A stretch of DNA of 64,000 nucleotides from Sipunculus nudus (taxonomy: Eukaryota > Annelida > Sipuncula > Golfingiida > Sipunculidae). Below the pieces are notes generated by a model. It saw nothing but the letters and a program-made list of their open reading frames with translations. It had not been told where the DNA came from and did not search any database. Made by a program: the position numbers and the translations under genes. Positions 3,763 through 57,238 of the stretch are shown here, in pieces (position 1 is the first letter of the stretch; the number at the start of each line of letters is the position of its first letter). The DNA lies in contig CM049320.1 in NCBI GenBank assembly GCA_026874595.1, positions 27,195,214 to 27,259,213 on the forward strand. The letters run 5' to 3'.

Positions 3763-4009
3763 CAAACATTTGCCTATTAGCGAAAATTACGACTTTTGTG
3801 GTGGTGCGTTTAACAGGCACGTGTCTAATTTGCACCAGTATATTGATGCGCATGCATACGCTTTATCTAAAGAAAGTTTCGCACAAAGGGAAACATGATT
3901 AGCAATTTGTGGCGTTGGAAGACTTCATACTTGATAAGACTTAATTATATTCAATCAGCACTTATTCAGGATATAAGTTAAATGCGGCAACAGCATTGTT
4001 AAAAAACGT

Positions 4010-4073
<64 letters not shown>

Positions 4074-4097
4074 CTCTGAAGAAAAACAACACTGTTA
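3763..4097. other. Probable 3' flank with (TA)n tract
   Basis: Non-coding sequence after the TAG of the 334-codon ORF, ending in a pure (TA)n run at 4013-4072. No AATAAA was found before the microsatellite. The first clear one is at 4370-4375, beyond two TA tracts, so the transcript end is undetermined. Confidence 0.4.
4013..4072. repeat. (TA)n microsatellite, about 30 repeats
   Basis: Uninterrupted TA run immediately left of the hammerhead-like motif. Confidence 0.95.
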
Positions 4098-4145
4098 ATT
4101 CACAACAGTCTGTTTCACGGGATGCGACCCGATCATCAGGTGAAT
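4098..4145 (-). ncRNA. Hammerhead-ribozyme-like motif (type I permutation)
   Basis: Read on the minus strand in order: ATTCAC, then the core CTGATGA, then T-CGGG-TCGCAT-CCCG-T, then GAAA, then CAGACTGTT, then GTGAAT. ATTCAC and GTGAAT form a perfect 6-bp stem I. CGGG and CCCG form a 4-bp stem II. After GAA, ACA and TGT can form a 3-bp stem III with a GAC loop. The predicted cleavage site follows GTT, between plus-strand positions 4104 and 4103. The invariant CUGAUGA and GAAA boxes are both present in the right order. The weak point is a T-T pair at the base of stem II, where G-C is usual. Very short stem III is typical of hammerheads in Penelope-like elements and retrozymes. Activity is an inference. 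Confidence 0.6.
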
Positions 4146-4152
4146 GTGGTTA

Positions 4153-4154
<2 letters not shown>

Positions 4155-4190
<36 letters not shown>
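4155..4190. repeat. (TA)n microsatellite
   Basis: TA run immediately right of the hammerhead-like motif. Confidence 0.95.
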
Positions 4191-4192
<2 letters not shown>

Positions 4193-4199
4193 TGGATTT

Positions 4200-5520
<1,321 letters not shown>

Positions 5521-13457: not shown

Positions 13458-14204
13458 AGTAGGATTTGAAGTTATTAGATGAGGTATGACTCTATATAGG
13501 GACATCTGCTGGAATGCATTGGACGTAAAAGAAGGTAAATCATCGGAGTTTCTTGATATTTATACGTTCAATTTTGTAGCCTGTGTTCTATATTTGCTCC
13601 AAGCTTATCAGTATTTTGTGTCTGTCACATAGATGCCAGTTTGGAAATAGGTTTGTTTTCTTGAAAATCACTGGGGCTTGAATTACAGCTAGTTTTGTCA
13701 GCAACAAGGAGTCAAAAGTTCTGAATGTATAAGCCAGGAGGTATTCCAGCCTTGTGATATATATAATAATAATCATCACCAAGCATTATAACACCTGAAA
13801 TTAAAAGAGTTTCTAGCATCTGTGGTAGAATAATTAAAAGGAAAGATGAGTTGGAATAAGTGGACTAAAAATATAATATGAGCTGTTCACAGGTATAATT
13901 AAAATTTTACATACTCTGTTCACTTAATACATAATAATACATGCACTTGCATGCACCCAGAACAAAATAATTCTTAAAAGTAAAATTCATTTCAGTCTGC
14001 TTTTTGGCAAAATTATATTTCTATATAATTAAATTTTTATAAAATCATATTTTTTTGTCAAGGCAGACCCCAAGACTCTACAATATGTCCTGGGTCAATG
14101 ACTCATACATCTGTGTTATGACCCTAGCAAGTCATTTGAACAAATTTGTTATAACCAATGATGTTTGGCAGAAAATTGCTAATGATTTTGTTCCCTTTTT
14201 TCAG
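13458..14204. other. Intergenic or upstream intron of the DUF1647-type gene
   Basis: No gene is supported. The stretch ends in a good splice acceptor (TTCCCTTTTTTCAG, AG at 14203-14204) just before the first coding exon of the DUF1647-type gene. At least one upstream non-coding exon must therefore exist, but I could not place it. Confidence 0.45.
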
Positions 14205-14641
14205 AAAATGTTGCAAGAGTAATCCCCGGACATCCTGATTATGAAACAACCTGGTCATCCATGATGCAATTGCTTCAGCTCTGTCGTATAAAAATCAAGA
14301 CTTGCTTTCATTTATTCATCATCTTAATATGGCTTGGGACATTGATATACTACACGCTTGCCCTGCTGCTGGATGCACAGTTCAAGTCGCACAAGGTTAT
14401 GTTTGACGGAAACATCGAAGATGTCGAGTCTAATGATTTGATGAGAGAAATCGGTTTCATCGAACCACCGAATCTGTTTCCCCAGGCTCATCATGAGGAG
14501 GATGGGCCTGTGTTTGTCATGACACTGACTTCTGCGGAATTCTACGATTTCTTCGGCTTCTTGAGAACTATGCGCATGTATTACCCAAATTATAAATTAG
14601 TCATCTATGATATAGATTTAACAGAAGAAGATTATAATCTA
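14205..14641 (+). CDS. DUF1647-type gene, exon A (5' UTR part plus residues 1-127)
   Basis: Acceptor AG at 14203-14204, donor CTA|GTAAGTG after 14641. The ATG at 14261 is followed at once by a second ATG, and I chose the first. The open frame runs past the donor into a poly-T tract, which shows that the longer ORF is not the true product. Confidence 0.85.
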
Positions 14642-17600
14642 GTAAGTGCATATTTCACTTTCATTTTTTTTTTTTTTTTTTTTTTTTGAGTGCTGTGCTC
14701 ATTTTGGTTCTTTATTTTGAGAAATCTCAAAGCCCATCAATTTGAACTAGTTGTCTATAAAATTAGGACTGAATTTTAAGATTTATAATTGTTTTAATTG
14801 GAGGTAAATTATTTAATATTTGAATTTTTATTATTGATAAAATATTGATTTACAATGGGTAGGAATACATTTTGAAATAAAACCATAAAATGACATCCTT
14901 GTATTATGAATAAATTTTACTTTTATAATTCATTATTATTATTTTCATCAGTATTATGATTATTATTTTGATTATGATGTAAATGATAATTATCATTATG
15001 CATTTTATGGGATGCCTTAGGTTTTATGAAATTTCTAAAAAAAACAAACTCGCTTTGTGATTTTGGGGGAAATATTACCTTAATTTAATTGTATCCGCCA
15101 AAACGAAGTTTTGCGGATACTATGTTTTTGACCAGGTTCCGCCGCCGCCGCATTCGTTTCCGGAGAACTCCTCTGAGACTACTGGACGGATTTTTCCAAA
15201 ACTTACACAAATTATCGGGTCACATGTGAACTGGTGCCTAACCAAGTGACCTTGACCTCTTACCTTTCCTCTTTGCCCAGCGTCCGTTTGTGCGTCTGTT
15301 TCCACACATAAACCCACATATCTCGGGAACCGTTTGACCGATCAGGAAAAACATTTTACACAAATGTAGCCCTGGGATAGCTTTATAACATACACAACAA
15401 AAGGTGGCGCCACCTGCAACCATGTTTACACAGTGTCCATCTGTTTGTCTGCCTTGGGTTAAAATCACTCATATCTCTGCAGTGGTTTGACTAATTCACT
15501 TAAAATTTGGCATGCATATACATCCTGGATAACTTTCTTGATTTTATGACAGGTGGCGCCACCTACATTCATGTTAACGCTGCAGACATCCAAGCTCATA
15601 TCTCGGGAACCGTTTGACCAATCAGGAAAAAAATTTTACATAAATGTAGCCCTTGGATAGCTTTATAACATAAACAAAAATGGTGGCGCCACCTGCAGCC
15701 GTTTTTGCACAGCGTCCATCTGTTTGTCTGCCTTAGGTTAAAATCATTCATATCTCTGCAGTGGTTTGACCAAATTACCTGAAATTTGGCATGCTTATAC
15801 ATCCGGCATAGCTTTCTTGATTTTATGACAGGTGGCGCCACTTGCATTCACATTCACGCTGTAGACATCCATGCTTATATCTCCGGACTAGTTCAACCAA
15901 TCAGGAAAAAATTTTTACTCAAATGTAGCCCTTGGATAGCTTTATAACATACACAAAAATGGTGGCGCCACCTGCACCCATTTTTGCACAGCATCCATCT
16001 GTTTGTCTGCCTTGGGTTAAAATCACTCATATCTCTGCAGTGGTTTGACCAAATTACCTGTAATTCGGGATTCGTATACATCCTGGATAGCTTTCTTGAT
16101 TTTATGACAGGTGGCGCCACCTACATTCACGTTCACGCTGCAGACATTATTGCTTATATCTCTGGAACTGTTTGACCAATCAGGAAAAAATTTTACACAA
16201 ATGTAGCCCTTGGATAGCTTTATAACAACCACAAAAATGGTGGCGCCACCTGCAGCCATGTTTGCACAGTGTCCATTTGTTTGTCTGGTGTGGGATAAAA
16301 TCACTCATATCTCTGCAGTGGTTTGACTTTTCCACATGAAATTTTGCACATGTATACATCTTGAATAGTTTCTCGTTCAGATAACAGGTGGCGCCACCTA
16401 CAATCATGTTTATTAGGCAGAGTCATTCTAATATGAAACATAGTAACTCTATATCCTCTTGCCACTCAATCCATGCCTCACTTCACCCGTCCTCTGATTT
16501 TGGCGGATACACGTAGTCGCTTGTTCACTACCCGTATTCTAGTTTCAGAAATGTTTAGCAGGACAAGTGAGCTATATATCCTTCACAAATTCTTTTCAGA
16601 TAAGAATAAACTGCTTTTGCGTAATCCGCAAGATACACTGGTATCGCTATCCTGATCATGTGCAAACACTGAAGTATCGTGCATACAAGCCTCTTCTAGT
16701 ACAGGTCAGTATTGTATGTTATGATTTGTTTTATTTTAAACTCAATACAGCATATGCATTTAAAGGTGCCCATTCACCTACATCTTGAAAAGAATTTAGG
16801 GATTTTTGGCTTCCTCTGTGTGTATATAAATGATTTAAGGGTAATTGTGGTTATGAAAAGATTTAATAATGCCTTTGTTGACAAACAGGAACACATGTAA
16901 CCTAAGGTAAACATGAGGACAGGCATATGCCATACAGGTAACTGGATGATTTCCTACTTTAACACCACACAGCAACTGAAGTTTTGCCATAGGAATGGAT
17001 TTTTTACTTTATTTTGTTAGCTTACATGCATTTATTTATGTTAATATGATCACTCATAGCCTATGTTAAGATGACCAACCATTTACCACAGTATTGATAA
17101 AACTGGATGGATAGCTATTTCAGTGCATTCTTGGGTATACATGACTTAAGTCACTAATCAAATACAGGCTTACCTACCTACTGGGTCGTGTATTCATAGC
17201 TAGGTATATATCCACTTGAGGTCTGTCAATACTTTAGCATCAGAAATTCTGGGTCCCTTAATATATTTTGTATAATTTTGTGGAGGTTGATAAGTTTTTC
17301 TTATTTTTTTCAGGAGACACTGGATGAGTTTGGTTCTGTGTTCTGGCTTGATGCTTCTGTCCGCTTCACCAGTAGTGACATCTGGATGTTGTTAACGGAA
17401 GCAAAAGATCTTGGCCTCATGGGTTGGCCACTCATTTATCCCACTTCCACACTGACCCACTACAACACATTCCGCTATCTTAACACCAGCCATAATAAAT
17501 ATTTCTTCCATCGAATGATTGACCCTTCCAGGACAGTTTATTACAACACAGAAAAAGTTCATCGAGAAATTATGCTTCCGTGGGTTAAATGCGCCTTAGA

Positions 17601-17844
17601 CGTTAACTGCATTGCCCCCTGGGGGTCACAACCACAAGGGTGCAACTTTATGCATAAACCTCGTTATATTTATGCAGGATGTCACCAGTATGAAATGTCA
17701 GCATTAAATGTTATTCTAGCCAAAGCTTACAATTTTGACACACCTTATATTACAGATAAAAAGCTCTTCAAAGTGGCACCTCCTAGAGGCCGAAAGCTGA
17801 TTCCACAATCGCGAAACTGGACCAGTCTTATGAAACTGTCATGA
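14205..17844 (+). CDS. DUF1647-family type II membrane protein, 3 coding exons, 338 aa
   Basis: The coding exons are 14261-14641, 16600-16704 and 17314-17844. All junctions are GT-AG and both introns are phase 0. They give 127 + 35 + 176 residues, a complete protein. Residues 15-37 form one hydrophobic anchor (FHLFIILIWLGTLIYYTLALLL) after a short basic tail, so this should be a type II protein with a luminal or extracellular C-terminal domain. That domain carries the hallmarks of the DUF1647 family (glycosyltransferase-like, function unknown, expanded in nematodes): VFVMTLTSAEFYDFF, KLVIYDIDLTEEDYNL, then YPDHVQTLKYRAYKPLLVQ and ETLDEFGSVFWLDASVRF, where W-x-D-x-S-x-R is the family signature. 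Conserved-looking cysteines follow in LPWVKCALDVNCIAP and AGCHQYEMS. A Golgi sugar-transfer role is an inference. Intron 1 contains a repeat element, and the transcript starts with two upstream ORFs. Confidence 0.85.
14208..14264 (+). promoter_or_regulatory. Two short uORFs in the 5' leader
   Basis: The first uORF, 14208-14222, encodes M-L-Q-E-stop. The second, 14241-14264, encodes M-K-Q-P-G-H-P-stop, and its TGA overlaps the main ATG as ATGA. Such an arrangement would make main-frame translation depend on leaky scanning or reinitiation. It applies if the acceptor at 14204 is the one used. Confidence 0.55.
15091..16555 (+). mobile_element. Non-autonomous element with 279-bp internal repeats (family F, copy 1)
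   Basis: The left end is a hairpin, GTATCCGCCAAAAC-GAA-GTTTTGCGGATAC (15091-15120, one-base bulge). TATCCGCCAAAA at 15092-15103 recurs inverted as TTTTGGCGGATA at 16498-16509. Copy 2 at 30.8 kb shares both ends and about 45 bases beyond the inverted copy, so I extend to 16555. Inside are about four 279-bp units, each with two GGTGGCGCCACC palindromes. It lies in intron 1 of the DUF1647-type gene and ends about 45 bases before the next exon. A terminal hairpin, an asymmetric inverted repeat and internal tandems resemble HINE/Helentron elements, but the class is not proven. The 65-93-codon minus-strand ORFs are echoes of the tandem unit. Confidence 0.75.
15403..16398. repeat. Tandem array of 279-bp units with eight GGTGGCGCCACC palindromes
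   Basis: Palindrome starts: 15403, 15552, 15682, 15831, 15961, 16110, 16239, 16387. Spacings alternate 149 and 130 bases (last values 129 and 148). Seven copies are exact 12-mers and one (15831) has T as its last base. Confidence 0.9.
16600..16704 (+). CDS. DUF1647-type gene, exon B (35 codons)
   Basis: Acceptor CTTTTCAG before 16600, donor CAG|GTCAGT after 16704, phase 0 on both sides. It encodes INCFCVIRK and YPDHVQTLKYRAYKPLLVQ, matching the family order C-x-V...YP-x-x-V...Y-[AR]-[WY]-KP. Too short to show up as an ORF of its own. Confidence 0.8.
17314..17844 (+). CDS. DUF1647-type gene, exon C (176 codons plus stop)
   Basis: Acceptor TTATTTTTTTCAG before 17314. The exon starts ETLDEFGSVFWLDASVRF and ends at TGA 17842-17844. 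The M at 17278 lies in the intron and is not the start. This is the most conserved third of the protein. Confidence 0.88.
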   Translation, partial: ETLDEFGSVFWLDASVRFTSSDIWMLLTEAKDLGLMGWPLIYPTSTLTHYNTFRYLNTSHNKYFFHRMIDPSRTVYYNTEKVHREIMLPWVKCALDVNCIAPWGSQPQGCNFMHKPRYIYAGCHQYEMSALNVILAKAYNFDTPYITDKKLFKVAPPRGRKLIPQSRNWTSLMKLS

Positions 17845-30760: not shown

Positions 30761-31942
30761 TTGTATCCGCCAAAACAGAGTTTTGCGGATATTATGTGTT
30801 CAGTAGGACGCCACGGCCGCCACTGCCGCATAGGTTTCCGGAGAACTCCTCCTTAACCACTGTTTTTTTAAATTCGGGATTATAATCGGGTCACATGTGA
30901 ACTGCTGCGCCCTCATTTTAGGTTGACCTCTTACCTTTCCTCTCTGCCCAGCATCCATTTGTGCGTCTGTTTCCACACATAAACCCACTTATCTTGGAAC
31001 CGTTTGACCGACCAGGGTGAAAAAACTTTGCACAAATGTAGCCATTGGAAAGCTTTATAACATACACTAAAATGGTGGCGACACCTGCAACCATTTTTGC
31101 ACAGCGTCCATCTGTTCATCTGCCTTGGGATAAAACCACTCATTTCCCTGCATTGGTTTTACTTATCCACCTGAAATTTTGCATTTGTATACACCCTGGT
31201 TAGCTTTCTTGATTTTATGACAGGCGGCGCCACCTACATACACGTTAACGCTGCAGACATCCAAGCTCATATCTCGGAAACTGTCTGACTGATTGGGCAA
31301 AATGTTGCATGTGTATAGATCTCACATAGCTCTTCATCATACGCAAAATTGGTGGCGCCTCCTTCAACCATTTTTGCACAGCGTCCATCTGTTATTCTGC
31401 CGTGGGAAAAAAAATCACTCTTATCTCTGCAGTGGTTGGACATTTCTGCCTAAAATTTTGCAGGTTTATACATCTTGGATAGCTTTCTGGCGTTTGTGGC
31501 AGGTGGCGCCACCTACATTTCTGTTTACGCTGCAGACATCCAGGCTTATATATCAGGACTGGTTTGACATATCCCCCCGATATTTTTTTGCATGTGTATA
31601 GATCTCGTATAGCTCTTAATCATAAACAAGATTGCTGGCGCCACCTGCCACATTTTTTGCACAGCATCTTTCTGTTTGTGTGCTCAGGGATAAAATCACT
31701 CATATACAAGTAGTGGTTTGACTTATCTGCCTAAAATTTTGCATATGTATACATCTTGGACAGCTTTCTGGAATTTGTGGTAGGTGGTGCTACCTTCATA
31801 CACATTTCAGCTCCAGACATCTATGCTAATATGCAACACTTCACTCTATTTCCCCTTGCCACTCAATCCATGCCTCACTTCCCCTGTCCTACGGATACAC
31901 GTAGTCGCTTGTCAACTACCCATTTTCTGGTTTCAAAATGTC
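30761..31942 (+). mobile_element. Family F element, copy 2 (diverged)
   Basis: Starts with the same hairpin as the copy at 15.1 kb (GTATCCGCCAAAAC-AGA-GTTTTGCGGATAT, 30762-30791) and ends with the same CGGATACACGTAGTCGCTTG stretch (31892-31911) and its flank. Six degenerate GGTGGCGCCACC motifs lie at 31074, 31223, 31351, 31502, 31634 and 31783 with spacings 149, 128, 151, 132, 149, so the period is kept though the sequence has drifted. Confidence 0.75.
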
Positions 31943-51000: not shown

Positions 51001-54000
51001 CAAGGTTAACGTCAGCTGAGCACAGTGACCCATAGGTCCCTTGTTTTTTAATTTCCATACAACATTTCCCCTTTGCATATATTAGAGATGTTAATTTGTA
51101 TTTATACTTCTCAGTATTATATGAATTATTCTCTTGACACAAGTTATTAATGATAATTTTTAATCATAGAAAAATATAATTGGGCATTAAAATATCCAAT
51201 AATATACTTCATGGCAGGTCCTGCAGAAATCTAGCAGGACCGGCTATAAGCCCTCTGCAGCAGGACCTACTGTCCTGCTGCCAACTGCAAGTTTTCGCAA
51301 ACTCTGCATAATTGTGAGCTGTTTCTGTATTAATGCGAATAGAACAGACAGAACTTGGGGAGGGGACACCTACCTGTAACGACGGAATGAGGAGAACGTC
51401 AGTGCTGGGATGGCGCAGAAGACGACGTCGCCGGGGGAACAGACGAAGAGGACGACGATTGCCTGGAAAACTGGAGGACCTCACCCGCGGCGATCACAGG
51501 GCCCAGGGAGTAAAGGCCCAAAGCTTATAGCTGAACATCCTTGAGATAAAAACGGGTGAATGTAGACGGGGTCTTCCAGTAGCCCTTCTCGACCAGTTGA
51601 TTTGGTGAAACCCTGAGAAGTGGCCCAACGATGTAGAAAGAGCTTGAATGTCATGTACCTTGATGTGAAGGTGCTCTAAGGTTGATGGAGAAGCCAATTC
51701 ATATGCGGCGACAATAGTAGCTTTGAGCCACGCACTAATGGTGATAGGGCTAATTTCCTTATTGGAAGTGGTGACTTTTGTTGAAATAAACAACTTCTTG
51801 CGCCCCCCCCCCCCCCCGTAAAGAATGAGTAGCTTTAAGATAATAACGTAACCAACGAACCAGGCAATTGGTAGCCCCATAACGATACTGACCGTTAGGG
51901 AGGGCCAGAACGCGCCAAGCTGACGGAGGATCATCGAAATTTTGGTTCTTTCTATTAAAACCTGGGGAAAATGGAGGGTGGCGCATGAACCGTCGGCCGC
52001 AATTTGTGTGAATTTCGAATCAGCCACGAGGGCATGAAGCTCAGAGCGGCGACCGGCAGAGGCAAGAGCGAGGAGGAAAACCGTTTTCCGAGACGTGACA
52101 ATTGTGAAACAATGCCCACTTGTCTGAAGACCATGTTTGACAGTAGAAACAGGGATCCACAAGACCCCGGCAGGAGTCATTGTTCGAATGGCAATTGAAA
52201 CAAGTGGGGTGGGAATCCCAAACCGGGATTAAGGAAACACAAGAAACACAAGTGAGGTTCTCCATGGTGGGAAGGGAAAAGAAACTCAACTTACAGTTCA
52301 GTTGGCAAACTCGACTGTACAAACCAAACAGTGGACGAATCGCGCAGAGCGTGATCACACGTCCATCATGGCTGACGCCAGAAGAAAAATGTGATTACAG
52401 GAAACGGAAGTGTGACCTAGATACACGGGAACGAGGCGGGATGGGCGATAATAGGCCCAATAAGGGAAAATTTTCGGTTGGCTTACTCTGGCATATAAAC
52501 TTTAACAGAGAAAATTCTCATTAATACAGAAACAGCTCACAATTATGTTTACGTAATAAAACTGAATATTTAACATACTGTAGTTCAGGGATTTACTTTT
52601 TTTATTGTAATTGTTTTATATTATTTGACAGCAAACAAGAAAATTCATGGAATTAATGTCCCCTGCTTTTTGTTATCTTGGCTTTCTGTGATCTTCATGC
52701 TTGCCTTCTGGATATGTTTTAGGTTTTCTGAGTGCTTCGTGCGACGGGGGTCTGACTTCTGGTGTAACATAGAAATGCAATCTCCGGGCGGAAAACCACT
52801 GCATGCCAATATTTCCCGCGAGAATATCGTGTTAAACCGGTCCATAAATTTAGGTGCTTAGTCATCAGTTAATATCTTTGCTCAATCATCAGTTAATATA
52901 TTTACATCATTAATGTCTTGTTCCATTGATATATTAGTGTGGATAAAGTTGTCGAAACATATTTTTTCGTTTTGTTCTTAAGCTTCCATGTATCTGCGAA
53001 AAAACGTATCCGCAAAAGACGTACGTACGTTCTATAGTGCGCAGTCCGCAAAACCTGTTTCCATAAGTACGTACGTTTTTTCTTGCGGATACCCTTTAAC
53101 GTGCCTCTTTTGAAACTGCAAGGAGGACAGGCAGGAAAAAGGTCAATATATAGTCTCATCACATCTGGCGCCGGGGCACTGTTGGGGAATGTAGGTATTT
53201 TTGCCATCTGTAAAACGGATGAATCGCTCATTGATCCGTTTCGATGCTGTCCGTTTTTGTGGATACGTATGCGGAGCACGTTAAAACGGACATATGGAAA
53301 CAGTTCATCTTAAAAAGAGGGATCCGATTTTTTGCGTACGAGACGTACAAGATTTACAGATGAATGGAAACCCAGCTTAAAGCTGTTATCTTGTCATAAT
53401 AGATGATGTATGAGTAAGATGTGCATATTTTGTGTCCTTGCTATCAATGTATGTGCTGACCAGATGAACAATAAGTGTGTGTGTGTTTCTTTCAGAGAAA
53501 TCAGATAAAATTCTCCATTATTCATACTCGATACACCATAACCTAAAACTGGCAAAAAAATCCAATGCTAAAAGTTGAAAATGAACTCTAAAAATGAAGC
53601 CATTTTTCCTCACTCCATGGACGTTATTATGAATTAATTTTTTTTTTTCTTTGATGATGATCAAATATGCGCAACTTATACTTGAACAAAATCATCCCCA
53701 TCAAGTTAAAAAATGAATGGTCAAAATTATGCCATAGCCTACATGCTATGAGGAGCTATAAAGCATTTTCTGGTGATTATATATGAGCAATTAATACCAG
53801 AAATAAATAATCCCGATCACTATCTAATCACTTTGATCTCATTAATAACGGTCGTCTGCAAGGCTTTTAACGTTAATCTTATTAATGACCGCCATCAGGT
53901 TAATCCCTCTGTCCAAATAACCAGGCATAATCAGCCACGATCCTAGACCCCCGTCGCACGAAGCAAGTCCACTGGTGCGACCGGGTATCGTGGTTGCACT

Positions 54001-55034: not shown

Positions 55035-55388
55035 GTCGTGCGTACGGAGCCCGGGAGACGATCGAGTTTGTGAAATATATTTATTAATTCGTGCGCACGA
55101 ATTACTAATCCTTGCGCACGAATTACTCGGTGTGAAAATAAATTTCCAAGGTGGAAAAAATATTTATTAATTCGTGCGCACGCATTACTAATCCGTGTGA
55201 AAAATATATTTCTAAGGAGTAAAAATATTTATTTCAATAGGATAACAAAGTAGCCGATAAGGCTAATGCAACTGCTCTCCTGCATATAAATTAAAAGAAA
55301 GTGAAAAATTAACATGAATGTATATATGTATATATAAATGGTAAGATTGGAAAAGTGCACATATATTCACACACGGTAAGATATAGGC

Positions 55389-55391
<3 letters not shown>

Positions 55392-55462
<71 letters not shown>
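55392..55462. repeat. (TA)n microsatellite
   Basis: Pure TA tract inside the inverted-repeat element. Confidence 0.95.
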
Positions 55463-55467
<5 letters not shown>

Positions 55468-55615
55468 ATATACGTTAAAACAGATTGACATTCCACATAC
55501 ATTGATACTTATATATATATATATTATTACTGGTAGGCGTAATATAAAAATAAACGCCTCAGTCCATATCAAGCATATCAAATAGATTAAAACTATCAGT
55601 CTTTCCAACTGAATA

Positions 55616-55909
55616 TTAGTATTGATTTAATTGACTGGCACCTATAGTCGTATGGATAATTTCATCCTGACGATGATTGTCGCAATAATAACTGTATATT
55701 TCTCGAGAGGCAGGGTTTAAATAGTCACGAACATTTTCCTCAAAGGAATCGATTGAAGTAGACTGAATTTTAGGAAACTGTTCCAAAGTTTGCAGGCTAT
55801 TGAAAGGAAAGAAAAGAAAATTGGAAGGAAAGAAAAGCGACAATCTTTCCGTGTTAACCTCGGTATCTTTAGCAAATGCGATTTGCGCGGACTGTACAGG
55901 GCTGAGCAT
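55616..55909 (-). CDS. Unrecognised 97-codon ORF inside the inverted-repeat element
   Basis: Starts with ATG and stops normally. The composition is balanced (no low-complexity runs), with SIDSFEENVRDYLNPASRE in the middle. I recognise no domain. It could be cargo or a fragment of the element's own protein. Chance is possible. Confidence 0.25.
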   Translation of the reverse strand: MLSPVQSAQIAFAKDTEVNTERLSLFFPSNFLFFPFNSLQTLEQFPKIQSTSIDSFEENVRDYLNPASREIYSYYCDNHRQDEIIHTTIGASQLNQY

Positions 55910-56219
55910 GAGACAGACTTTGAGTTAATATATTTGAAGATAATCTTGAGCTAATCCGTTAATCATTTCATAAAATGTGGATTGTATAGCCAGCTCTCAT
56001 CTTATTTTTATACTTGACCATTATAGCTCTTTTACCAGAGCTCCATGCAGTGCTTGAAGTCGAGAGCGCTCCAGTACATGTTAAACATGCTTTCCGTTGT
56101 GTACTCTCCAGTTGGTATGACTGTCTGACAGAACAATTGTTAAATATTAAAACACCACATTCCAGTACTTAACGTATTAATGATTTGTACATACGATCTA
56201 AAACTTTCATAGAGAAATG

Positions 56220-56759
56220 GAATTTATATATTTTTTTTCAAAATTTCCAAACGCTTATTGGCTTTCAACATATCATGTTTATGTGTTCCTGTCAGGAAAG
56301 CGAATCCAAAATATGACATGAGAAGTTCTTTGAAGTTCATTTCACTTAGTTTGTGTAATTTGCAATTGAGCATCATCGTCAAATGGCGATTGAGAACTGT
56401 AACTGTTGTTTTAATTACTTTGTGAAGCAAATAACTGTTAAAGTTTTCAGCCTGGTCGGCTTTGTCTATAATAATGTTCCCATTATGCCCCGACGATGAT
56501 GAGGTAGGTTGTTGTTTTTTTTTACCAGAGAAAGCCTTTGAAATTTTCCACCATGCACGGCAAATGGGTCTGTGAGTTTTATGTTTATATTCTTTAAGTA
56601 TCGCTTAAAGGCCTTTCTAATTTCAATATACAGAGTTCCGAAAGTTAGGAAGTCACGGAACTGTCGGAAGTGGCTGGGCTCCATTTTGACAACCGTGTGT
56701 GCCCCCTGAAACTGCCAACCTGTGCCTATAGACTGAGTCGATGTGTGCCTGCTTCTCAT
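56220..56759 (-). pseudogene. Frameshifted ORF relic inside the inverted-repeat element
   Basis: The 97-codon frame (56466-56759, starting MRSRHTSTQSIG) ends in a stop, while a neighbouring frame that opens just upstream of that stop (HNGNIIIDKADQAENFNSY) continues for about 90 codons to 56224 (KLHKLSEMNFKELLMSYFG). Continuous coding character across a frame change suggests one decayed gene. The family was not recognised. Confidence 0.35.
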
Positions 56760-57238
56760 TGGCTAGTAATTCGTGCGCACGAATTAATAACTTGTGCGCA
56801 CGAATTAGTAGCCAATGAGCAATGAGCCAGCAACATAAGAGAGCTGCTCTCATGGTCACTAATTCGTGCGCACGGATTAGTCATTCGTGCGCACGGATTA
56901 TAGTCATTCGTGCGCGTGAATTAATAAATATTTTTTCCACCTTGGAAATATATTTTTCACACCTAGTCATTCGTGCGTACGGATTAGTAATTCGTGGCAA
57001 CGAATTAGTTATTCGTGCGCACGGATTAGTAATTATTTTTCACCATGTCGTCTCCCGGGCTCAGTACGTGCGTGCTCGTAGTGCATTTTATTTTTTTTTC
57101 TGGTGACAAATATATTGATTCGTCTTTTACATGAACTGACTGCAGAACTTTGTGACATGACAATATGAAGGGTTAAAGAATTTTAGGTCAAACCAAGCAG
57201 TTTACACAGACTAGAAGCTTCTTGGTTAAACTGAGCGA

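Follow-up and report, generated by a model that had tools for sequence, protein, structure and literature searches.

The hammerhead ribozyme (HHR) motif analysed here most probably (a probability of about 0.8) belongs to a solo tail left by a young Penelope-like retrotransposon (PLE), whose RNA would carry a minimal hammerhead of type I close to its 5' end. This reading is based on sequence comparison between the window, that is, the whole 64-kb stretch of DNA that was analysed, and the copies of the same motif elsewhere in the genome. The relevant features of the window are as follows.

4145-4098, minus strand: type I hammerhead motif, from sequence and a mechanical scan
4140-4145/4098-4103, minus strand: stem I, 6 bp
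4133-4139, minus strand: C3-A9 core box, CTGATGA
4117..4132, minus strand: U10.1 (4132) and U11.1 (4117), the stem II closing mismatch, constant in the sampled family
4128-4131/4118-4121, minus strand: stem II, 4 bp
4113-4116, minus strand: GAAA box
4111-4113/4105-4107, minus strand: stem III, 3 bp
4104, minus strand: H17, in the triplet GTT
4103..4104, minus strand: predicted self-cleavage site GTT^GTG, position from sequence
4073..4154, minus strand: putative solo 82-bp PLE tail, from (AT)TCTAACC to GAGT(TATA), the bracketed letters being common to the TA tracts
4013..4072, no strand: (TA)30, the presumed target microsatellite on the side of the element 3' end
4155..4190, no strand: (AT)18, the presumed other half of the split target, on the element 5' side

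Read on the minus strand, positions 4145-4098 are ATTCAC CTGATGA T CGGG TCGCAT CCCG T GAAA CA GAC TGT T GTGAAT. By sequence, this is confirmed as a genuine hammerhead motif of type I, with a CUGANGA...GAAA...UH core, three stems and an open end at stem I, and the mechanical scan found it to be the sole such motif within the 64-kb window. The two invariant boxes and three stems that a preliminary description had placed on this strand are present at the coordinates it gave, its cut between 4104 and 4103 is borne out as a position in the sequence, and the (TA)n tracts that it had reported on both flanks were recovered as (TA)30 at 4013-4072 and (AT)18 at 4155-4190. It had left unmentioned that stem II begins with a U10.1-U11.1 mismatch (4132/4117), which sets its 4 bp apart from the core. 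The ATG inside the HHR core is followed by 13 sense codons and then a stop.

Simulation of 14702 windows of 64 kb (third-order Markov, same composition) produced 13 motifs of at least this quality, a rate that is small for a single window and not decisive across the many windows read. The 1.43-Gb assembly (153 contigs) was then searched with the core/stem II pattern CTGATGANCGGGNNNNNNCCCGNGAAAC, in which stem II was fixed while 10.1, 11.1 and loop II were unconstrained. This search returned 2163 exact matches (1126 forward and 1037 reverse), against 0 matches for the reversed control of the pattern. The window motif is thus a family trait rather than a product of chance. Copies were sampled as 97 distinct contexts among 98 of the first 100 listed of the 2163 places, all on contig C1. 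In this core-selected sample 95 of 97 copies were in register, and instead of a base pair beside the core all 95 had U-U at 10.1-11.1; loop II was TCGCAT in 79 of them. H17 was T in 83 copies, A in 9, C in 1 and G in 2, so that a cleavable H is retained in 93/95. All six pairs of stem I were formed in 77/95 copies, and the changes observed were one-sided. Genome copies with compensatory stem changes, proposed earlier as a check on the ribozyme, were not found among these 95 near-identical copies, in which stem II was set by the search pattern. A scan of IMG/VR for the core/stem II pattern gave 0 matches. A DNA search of the genome with 4050-4200, in a mode that passes over simple repeats and common words, gave 0 candidates and missed even the window.

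Elsewhere in the genome, the same 82-bp stretch heads tandem units of 2.87-2.92 kb, in which the HHR lies ~150 nt upstream of a long open frame. This position at the head of tandem PLE units supports the earlier proposal of a short-stem-III hammerhead of the Penelope-like kind. At locus L031 (contig C1), three HHRs are spaced by 2874 and 2867 bp, and adjacent units are 99.6% identical. The inner HHRs of this locus are followed by GAGTTATACCGCTCTGG and the last one by GAGTTATATATA...; inside arrays the HHR region runs ...CTTCAGAGTTATACCGCTCTGG into the ORF. Where the L031 array ends on its 3' side, the region reads ...CTTCAGAGTTATATATATA instead, and the 82-bp stretch is the last part of the array before (TA)n. 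The frame is split in two in the first L031 unit and is open over 703 aa in the second, and a second array has two open frames of 713 aa each. A protein search found 63 of 63 scored matches (63 scored of 4165 candidates) to be open and 99-100% identical, which indicates that the element is young. On contig C17, a very large PLE tandem array occupies 42.72-42.86 Mb and holds 25 of the 63 scored intact frames, many of them at steps of ~2.92 kb.

Read by eye, the 703-aa frame holds FDIVDFYPSI and YRDDGLG, which we take to be reverse-transcriptase motifs A and C, and its C-terminal stretch presumably resembles the GIY-YIG endonuclease of Penelope-like elements. Searches with this ORF gave, in Pfam, Dam as the best match (E 0.096) and no reverse transcriptase or GIY-YIG; in PHROGs, four matches of unknown function (E 0.16 or worse); in NCBIfam, no match; in PDB, two irrelevant matches (E 0.62 and 1.3); and in IMG/VR, no relatives. 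As the profile searches were without a usable match, the name PLE rests on the motifs, the architecture and the HHR. By analogy with the element described in PMC11167929, the architecture would be that of a PLE, with a single frame, tandem units headed by an HHR, ends set by the tail, and AT targets. Two traits expected of a PLE were found, namely tandem or partial-tandem units with pseudo-LTRs containing the HHR, and insertion into AT-rich DNA with ends defined by the tail.

Within the window itself, removing the ORFs in which a single residue made up 20% or more left 41 with a length of 90 aa or above; Pfam, run on 10 chosen ORFs, named no PLE coding fragment. The minus-strand open frame at 51497-52228 (244 aa), which had no Pfam match at E up to 0.05, contains ALASAGRRSELHAL, a stretch that we take to resemble a tyrosine-recombinase (DIRS/Ngaro-like) element. 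Two plus-strand frames, at 14186-14686 and 17200-17841, resemble exons of one glycosyltransferase-like gene, with a weak, sub-cut-off match to DUF1647 in the 14186-14686 frame only. Two further tandem arrays, at 15317-16410 and 31061-31832, each have a period of 279 bp, and their units seem to be related; the window also contains, at 55081-57034, several clusters of a short repeated palindromic unit, in variants of ATTCGTGCGCACGAAT.

The 82-bp stretch spans from the preferred 5' end ATTCTAACC to GAGTTATA within (TA)n, and the window copy starts at ATTCTAACC, its first letters overlapping the TA tract. Among the 97 core-selected copies, 30 continue into the element on the ORF side, and 62 of the remaining 67 termini have (TA)4 at most 75 nt 3' of the motif (five do not), compared with 429 of 9133 (4.7%) 75-bp stretches of the window that hold (TA)4. 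An alternative regular expression applied to the same 97 copies gave 59 TA, 29 internal and 9 other. Both options raised in the preliminary description are supported, a solo remnant and a TA-targeted insertion, the latter by the excess of TA repeats at non-internal termini. Exact junctions number 875 genome-wide for the 3' end, CTTCAGAGT(TA)8, and 68 for the TA 5' junction, ATATATTCTAACCACATTCACCTGATGA, among them the window copy as C15:27199346-27199373. Junctions were sampled by exact patterns on contigs C1 and C2, where 4 of 14 exact TA 5' junctions have an exact TA 3' junction 76-79 bp away; with exact TA junctions at both ends, these four are solos like the window copy. The 10 others are without an exact 3' partner, and part of them may be heads of longer copies or variant tails. 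Many small copies consist of little beyond the ribozyme region, and 17 of the 97 core-selected copies are arranged head-to-head, their arms meeting near the preferred 5' ends. Some PLE clades reportedly prefer microsatellites. Our literature search found no paper on the targeting of TA microsatellites by PLEs or on solo PLE tails, which is not a claim of their absence from print.

To look at 5' ends, a second set was selected by the tail and not by the HHR core (1479 in the genome; 67 distinct copies examined, out of 100 listed). Of these tail-selected copies, 24 continue into the pseudo-LTR, 25 start 55-65 nt from the probe, including 12 precisely at ATTCTAACC, and 18 start closer to the tail. 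From this distribution we infer that ATTCTAACC is the 5' end of the RNA; TTCATTCT presumably resembles an initiator.

A plan like that of PAc, the Poseidon PLE of Anolis carolinensis, would by analogy explain the main junction classes found here. A tandem PLE locus would be transcribed from a start near ATTCTAACC, giving a transcript that bears one HHR tail at its 5' end and a second HHR tail one unit further on. The element protein would cut a (TA)n microsatellite, and reverse transcription would begin inside the RNA at GAGTTATA, where TTATA could pair with the TA target. A start at the second tail would lead to the copying of a full unit, whereas a start at the first tail would run for ~80 nt to the RNA 5' end and leave a solo HHR in a split TA tract. 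If both target strands were primed, the products could be joined by their 5' ends, which would yield the head-to-head pairs. The transcription start, the TTATA priming and the two-strand priming are all deduced from the junctions, and the TATA common to junction and target could be a coincidence. Directly downstream of the proposed start of reverse transcription, at L031:4499-4530, there is a strong hairpin, GCTCTGGCCTA...TAGGCCATAGAGC, which could be a protein-binding signal.

Other origins for the window feature were considered. A solo copy might be the deletion remnant of a full PLE rather than a primary short insertion, and truncated and rearranged copies do exist in this family (for example, L149 and L150). 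However, deletions would be expected to scatter, while the 5' ends of the tails pile up on one nucleotide, and TA borders the window copy at either end, which makes a deletion origin unlikely. The preliminary description had also suggested a retrozyme, a non-autonomous circular-RNA element of metazoans with a type I hammerhead. Hammerheads of this type are indeed found in retrozymes of a mussel and other animals, according to the account of these elements in PMC7229834, but in that account the retrozyme repeats measure ~170-400 bp; in the present case the solo is 82 bp, and the tandem units, which include a long open frame, measure 2.87-2.92 kb. No tandem HHR repeats of 170-400 bp were seen, the window holding a single HHR, and since what is repeated in tandem is a coding element of 2.9 kb, the retrozyme is left unsupported, and very unlikely.

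The last alternative, that unrelated DNA lying between two microsatellites happens to look like a hammerhead, could draw on three observations. The covariance-model check proposed in the preliminary description gave no hammerhead: no Rfam match reached its gathering threshold over the whole window, and the 17 matches at E up to 10 on 3990-4260 (271 nt), which we read as AT-rich chance matches, all under their own gathering scores, included no hammerhead family; a genome-wide RF00163 search, in which 73 of 150758 candidates were scored and the control was missed as well, carries no weight here. A U-U mismatch adjoins the core. Finally, folding of the segment gave a minimum-energy structure other than the hammerhead, whose probability with nearest-neighbour energies was 0.003 for the 48-mer, ~2e-7 for the 86-mer and 1e-4 for 401 nt; in the competing hairpin, the GAAACAG...CTGTT side pairs with AACAG...TTGTTTTTC. 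The fold is not counted as refuting the hammerhead, because the models are without tertiary energy and the PAc HHR is protein-dependent; the competing fold would fit protein-assisted cleavage, though it does not count as evidence for it. As to the mismatch, Perreault et al. 2011 (PMC3088659), in their treatment of position 10.1-11.1, report that, of all mispairs there, U10.1-U11.1 is the one that permits most cleavage, and that natural hammerheads with it are found; hits with a mispair at this position were dropped from their final alignments, yet U-U cases are reported. The genome copies outweigh the Rfam result: with 2163 occurrences of the core and stem II, at a constant place in the PLE unit, a one-off chance event is refuted and a chance origin becomes extremely improbable. 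The solo tail of a PLE is the reading that we retain.

The 5' ends closer to the tail may bear on whether the ribozyme is used. The predicted cut, GTT^GTGAATTAA, lies 9 nt from the tail probe, and four tails (L150-, L149, L136 and L152) start 6-8 nt from it, at or just inside that cut. The head-to-head arms of L134 start 6 nt from the probe in an ungapped comparison and 10 nt in a gapped one, and 11 other ends are scattered over positions 10-54 (L134 excluded; L100 is ambiguous, at 9 or 13). It is conceivable, if doubtful, that the HHR is active in the animal, cutting ahead of reverse transcription or in its course, and that its genomic footprints are a second, smaller cluster of 5' ends. The cluster is a lead only, as it comprises four to six tails, some of them rearranged and two with identical junction letters, in a range of positions picked afterwards. 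If this were true, the genome itself would record the activity of a PLE hammerhead.

Taken as a whole, the interpretation offered in the preliminary description is partly supported, for a PLE-type solo and not for a retrozyme. A PLE with a minimal hammerhead is a known kind of element, and it is the junction rules of this family that are informative. As PMC7761336 relates in discussing minimal hammerheads, many animal genomes contain thousands of them, mostly dispersed in non-coding DNA, and their role in PLEs is termed a "mystery". For the solo copies a simple origin is proposed here, as the short product of internal initiation of reverse transcription near the PLE RNA 5' end, inserted into TA microsatellites. 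In this young family at least 63 frames are open and near-identical and the junctions follow two clear rules, so that it lends itself to direct tests of target choice, of two-strand priming and of the use made of the ribozyme. It is also a naturally occurring family of hammerheads whose unusual U10.1-U11.1 mismatch is constant in the sample.

Minimal type I hammerheads of PLEs are credited to Cervera and de la Pena 2014 and Lunse et al. 2017 in the relevant sections of two reviews (PMC6155905, PMC7761336). The hammerheads outlined there resemble ours in being of type I with stem III weak or missing, and in lying within the pseudo-LTR of tandem units and in many dispersed copies. The family described here differs from them, as they are presented in those sections, in its U10.1-U11.1 closing mismatch, constant among the sampled copies, and in the association of its copy ends with (TA)n and with a single preferred 5' end. 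The non-LTR animal retrozymes, as portrayed in PMC7229834, share with this element the type I hammerhead and a high copy number in animal genomes; they are short tandem HHR repeats, whereas this is a coding element.

The closest likeness in mechanism is to PAc (PMC11167929), which cleaves and extends both DNA strands and prefers AT-rich DNA. In vitro, its reverse transcription starts within the RNA, near the ORF start; its HHR requires protein for cleavage, and cleavage is dispensable for insertion. PAc and the present element have in common the position of the HHR next to the start of the ORF, insertions defined by the tail, AT-rich targets, extension of both strands (for our element, as proposed above) and tandem arrays. 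However, the PAc HHR overlaps the start of the open frame, while here it lies upstream of the frame, and the start of reverse transcription in PAc is non-homologous to the cut DNA, whereas the 3' ends here coincide with TTATA, a match to the (TA)n target. For such a match between RNA and target there is a precedent, by analogy, in the Terminon PLEs, with RNA 3' repeats complementary to telomeric overhangs. For transposable elements as a whole, PMC12477314 describes microsatellites as landing pads. In its account of the Terminons/Athena of rotifers, the 3' end of the RNA is complementary to the simple repeat that is targeted and adjoins a hammerhead, as would be the case here. Their target is a G-rich telomeric overhang and their units can exceed 40 kb, whereas the element described here has units of 2.9 kb and is found at internal TA microsatellites.
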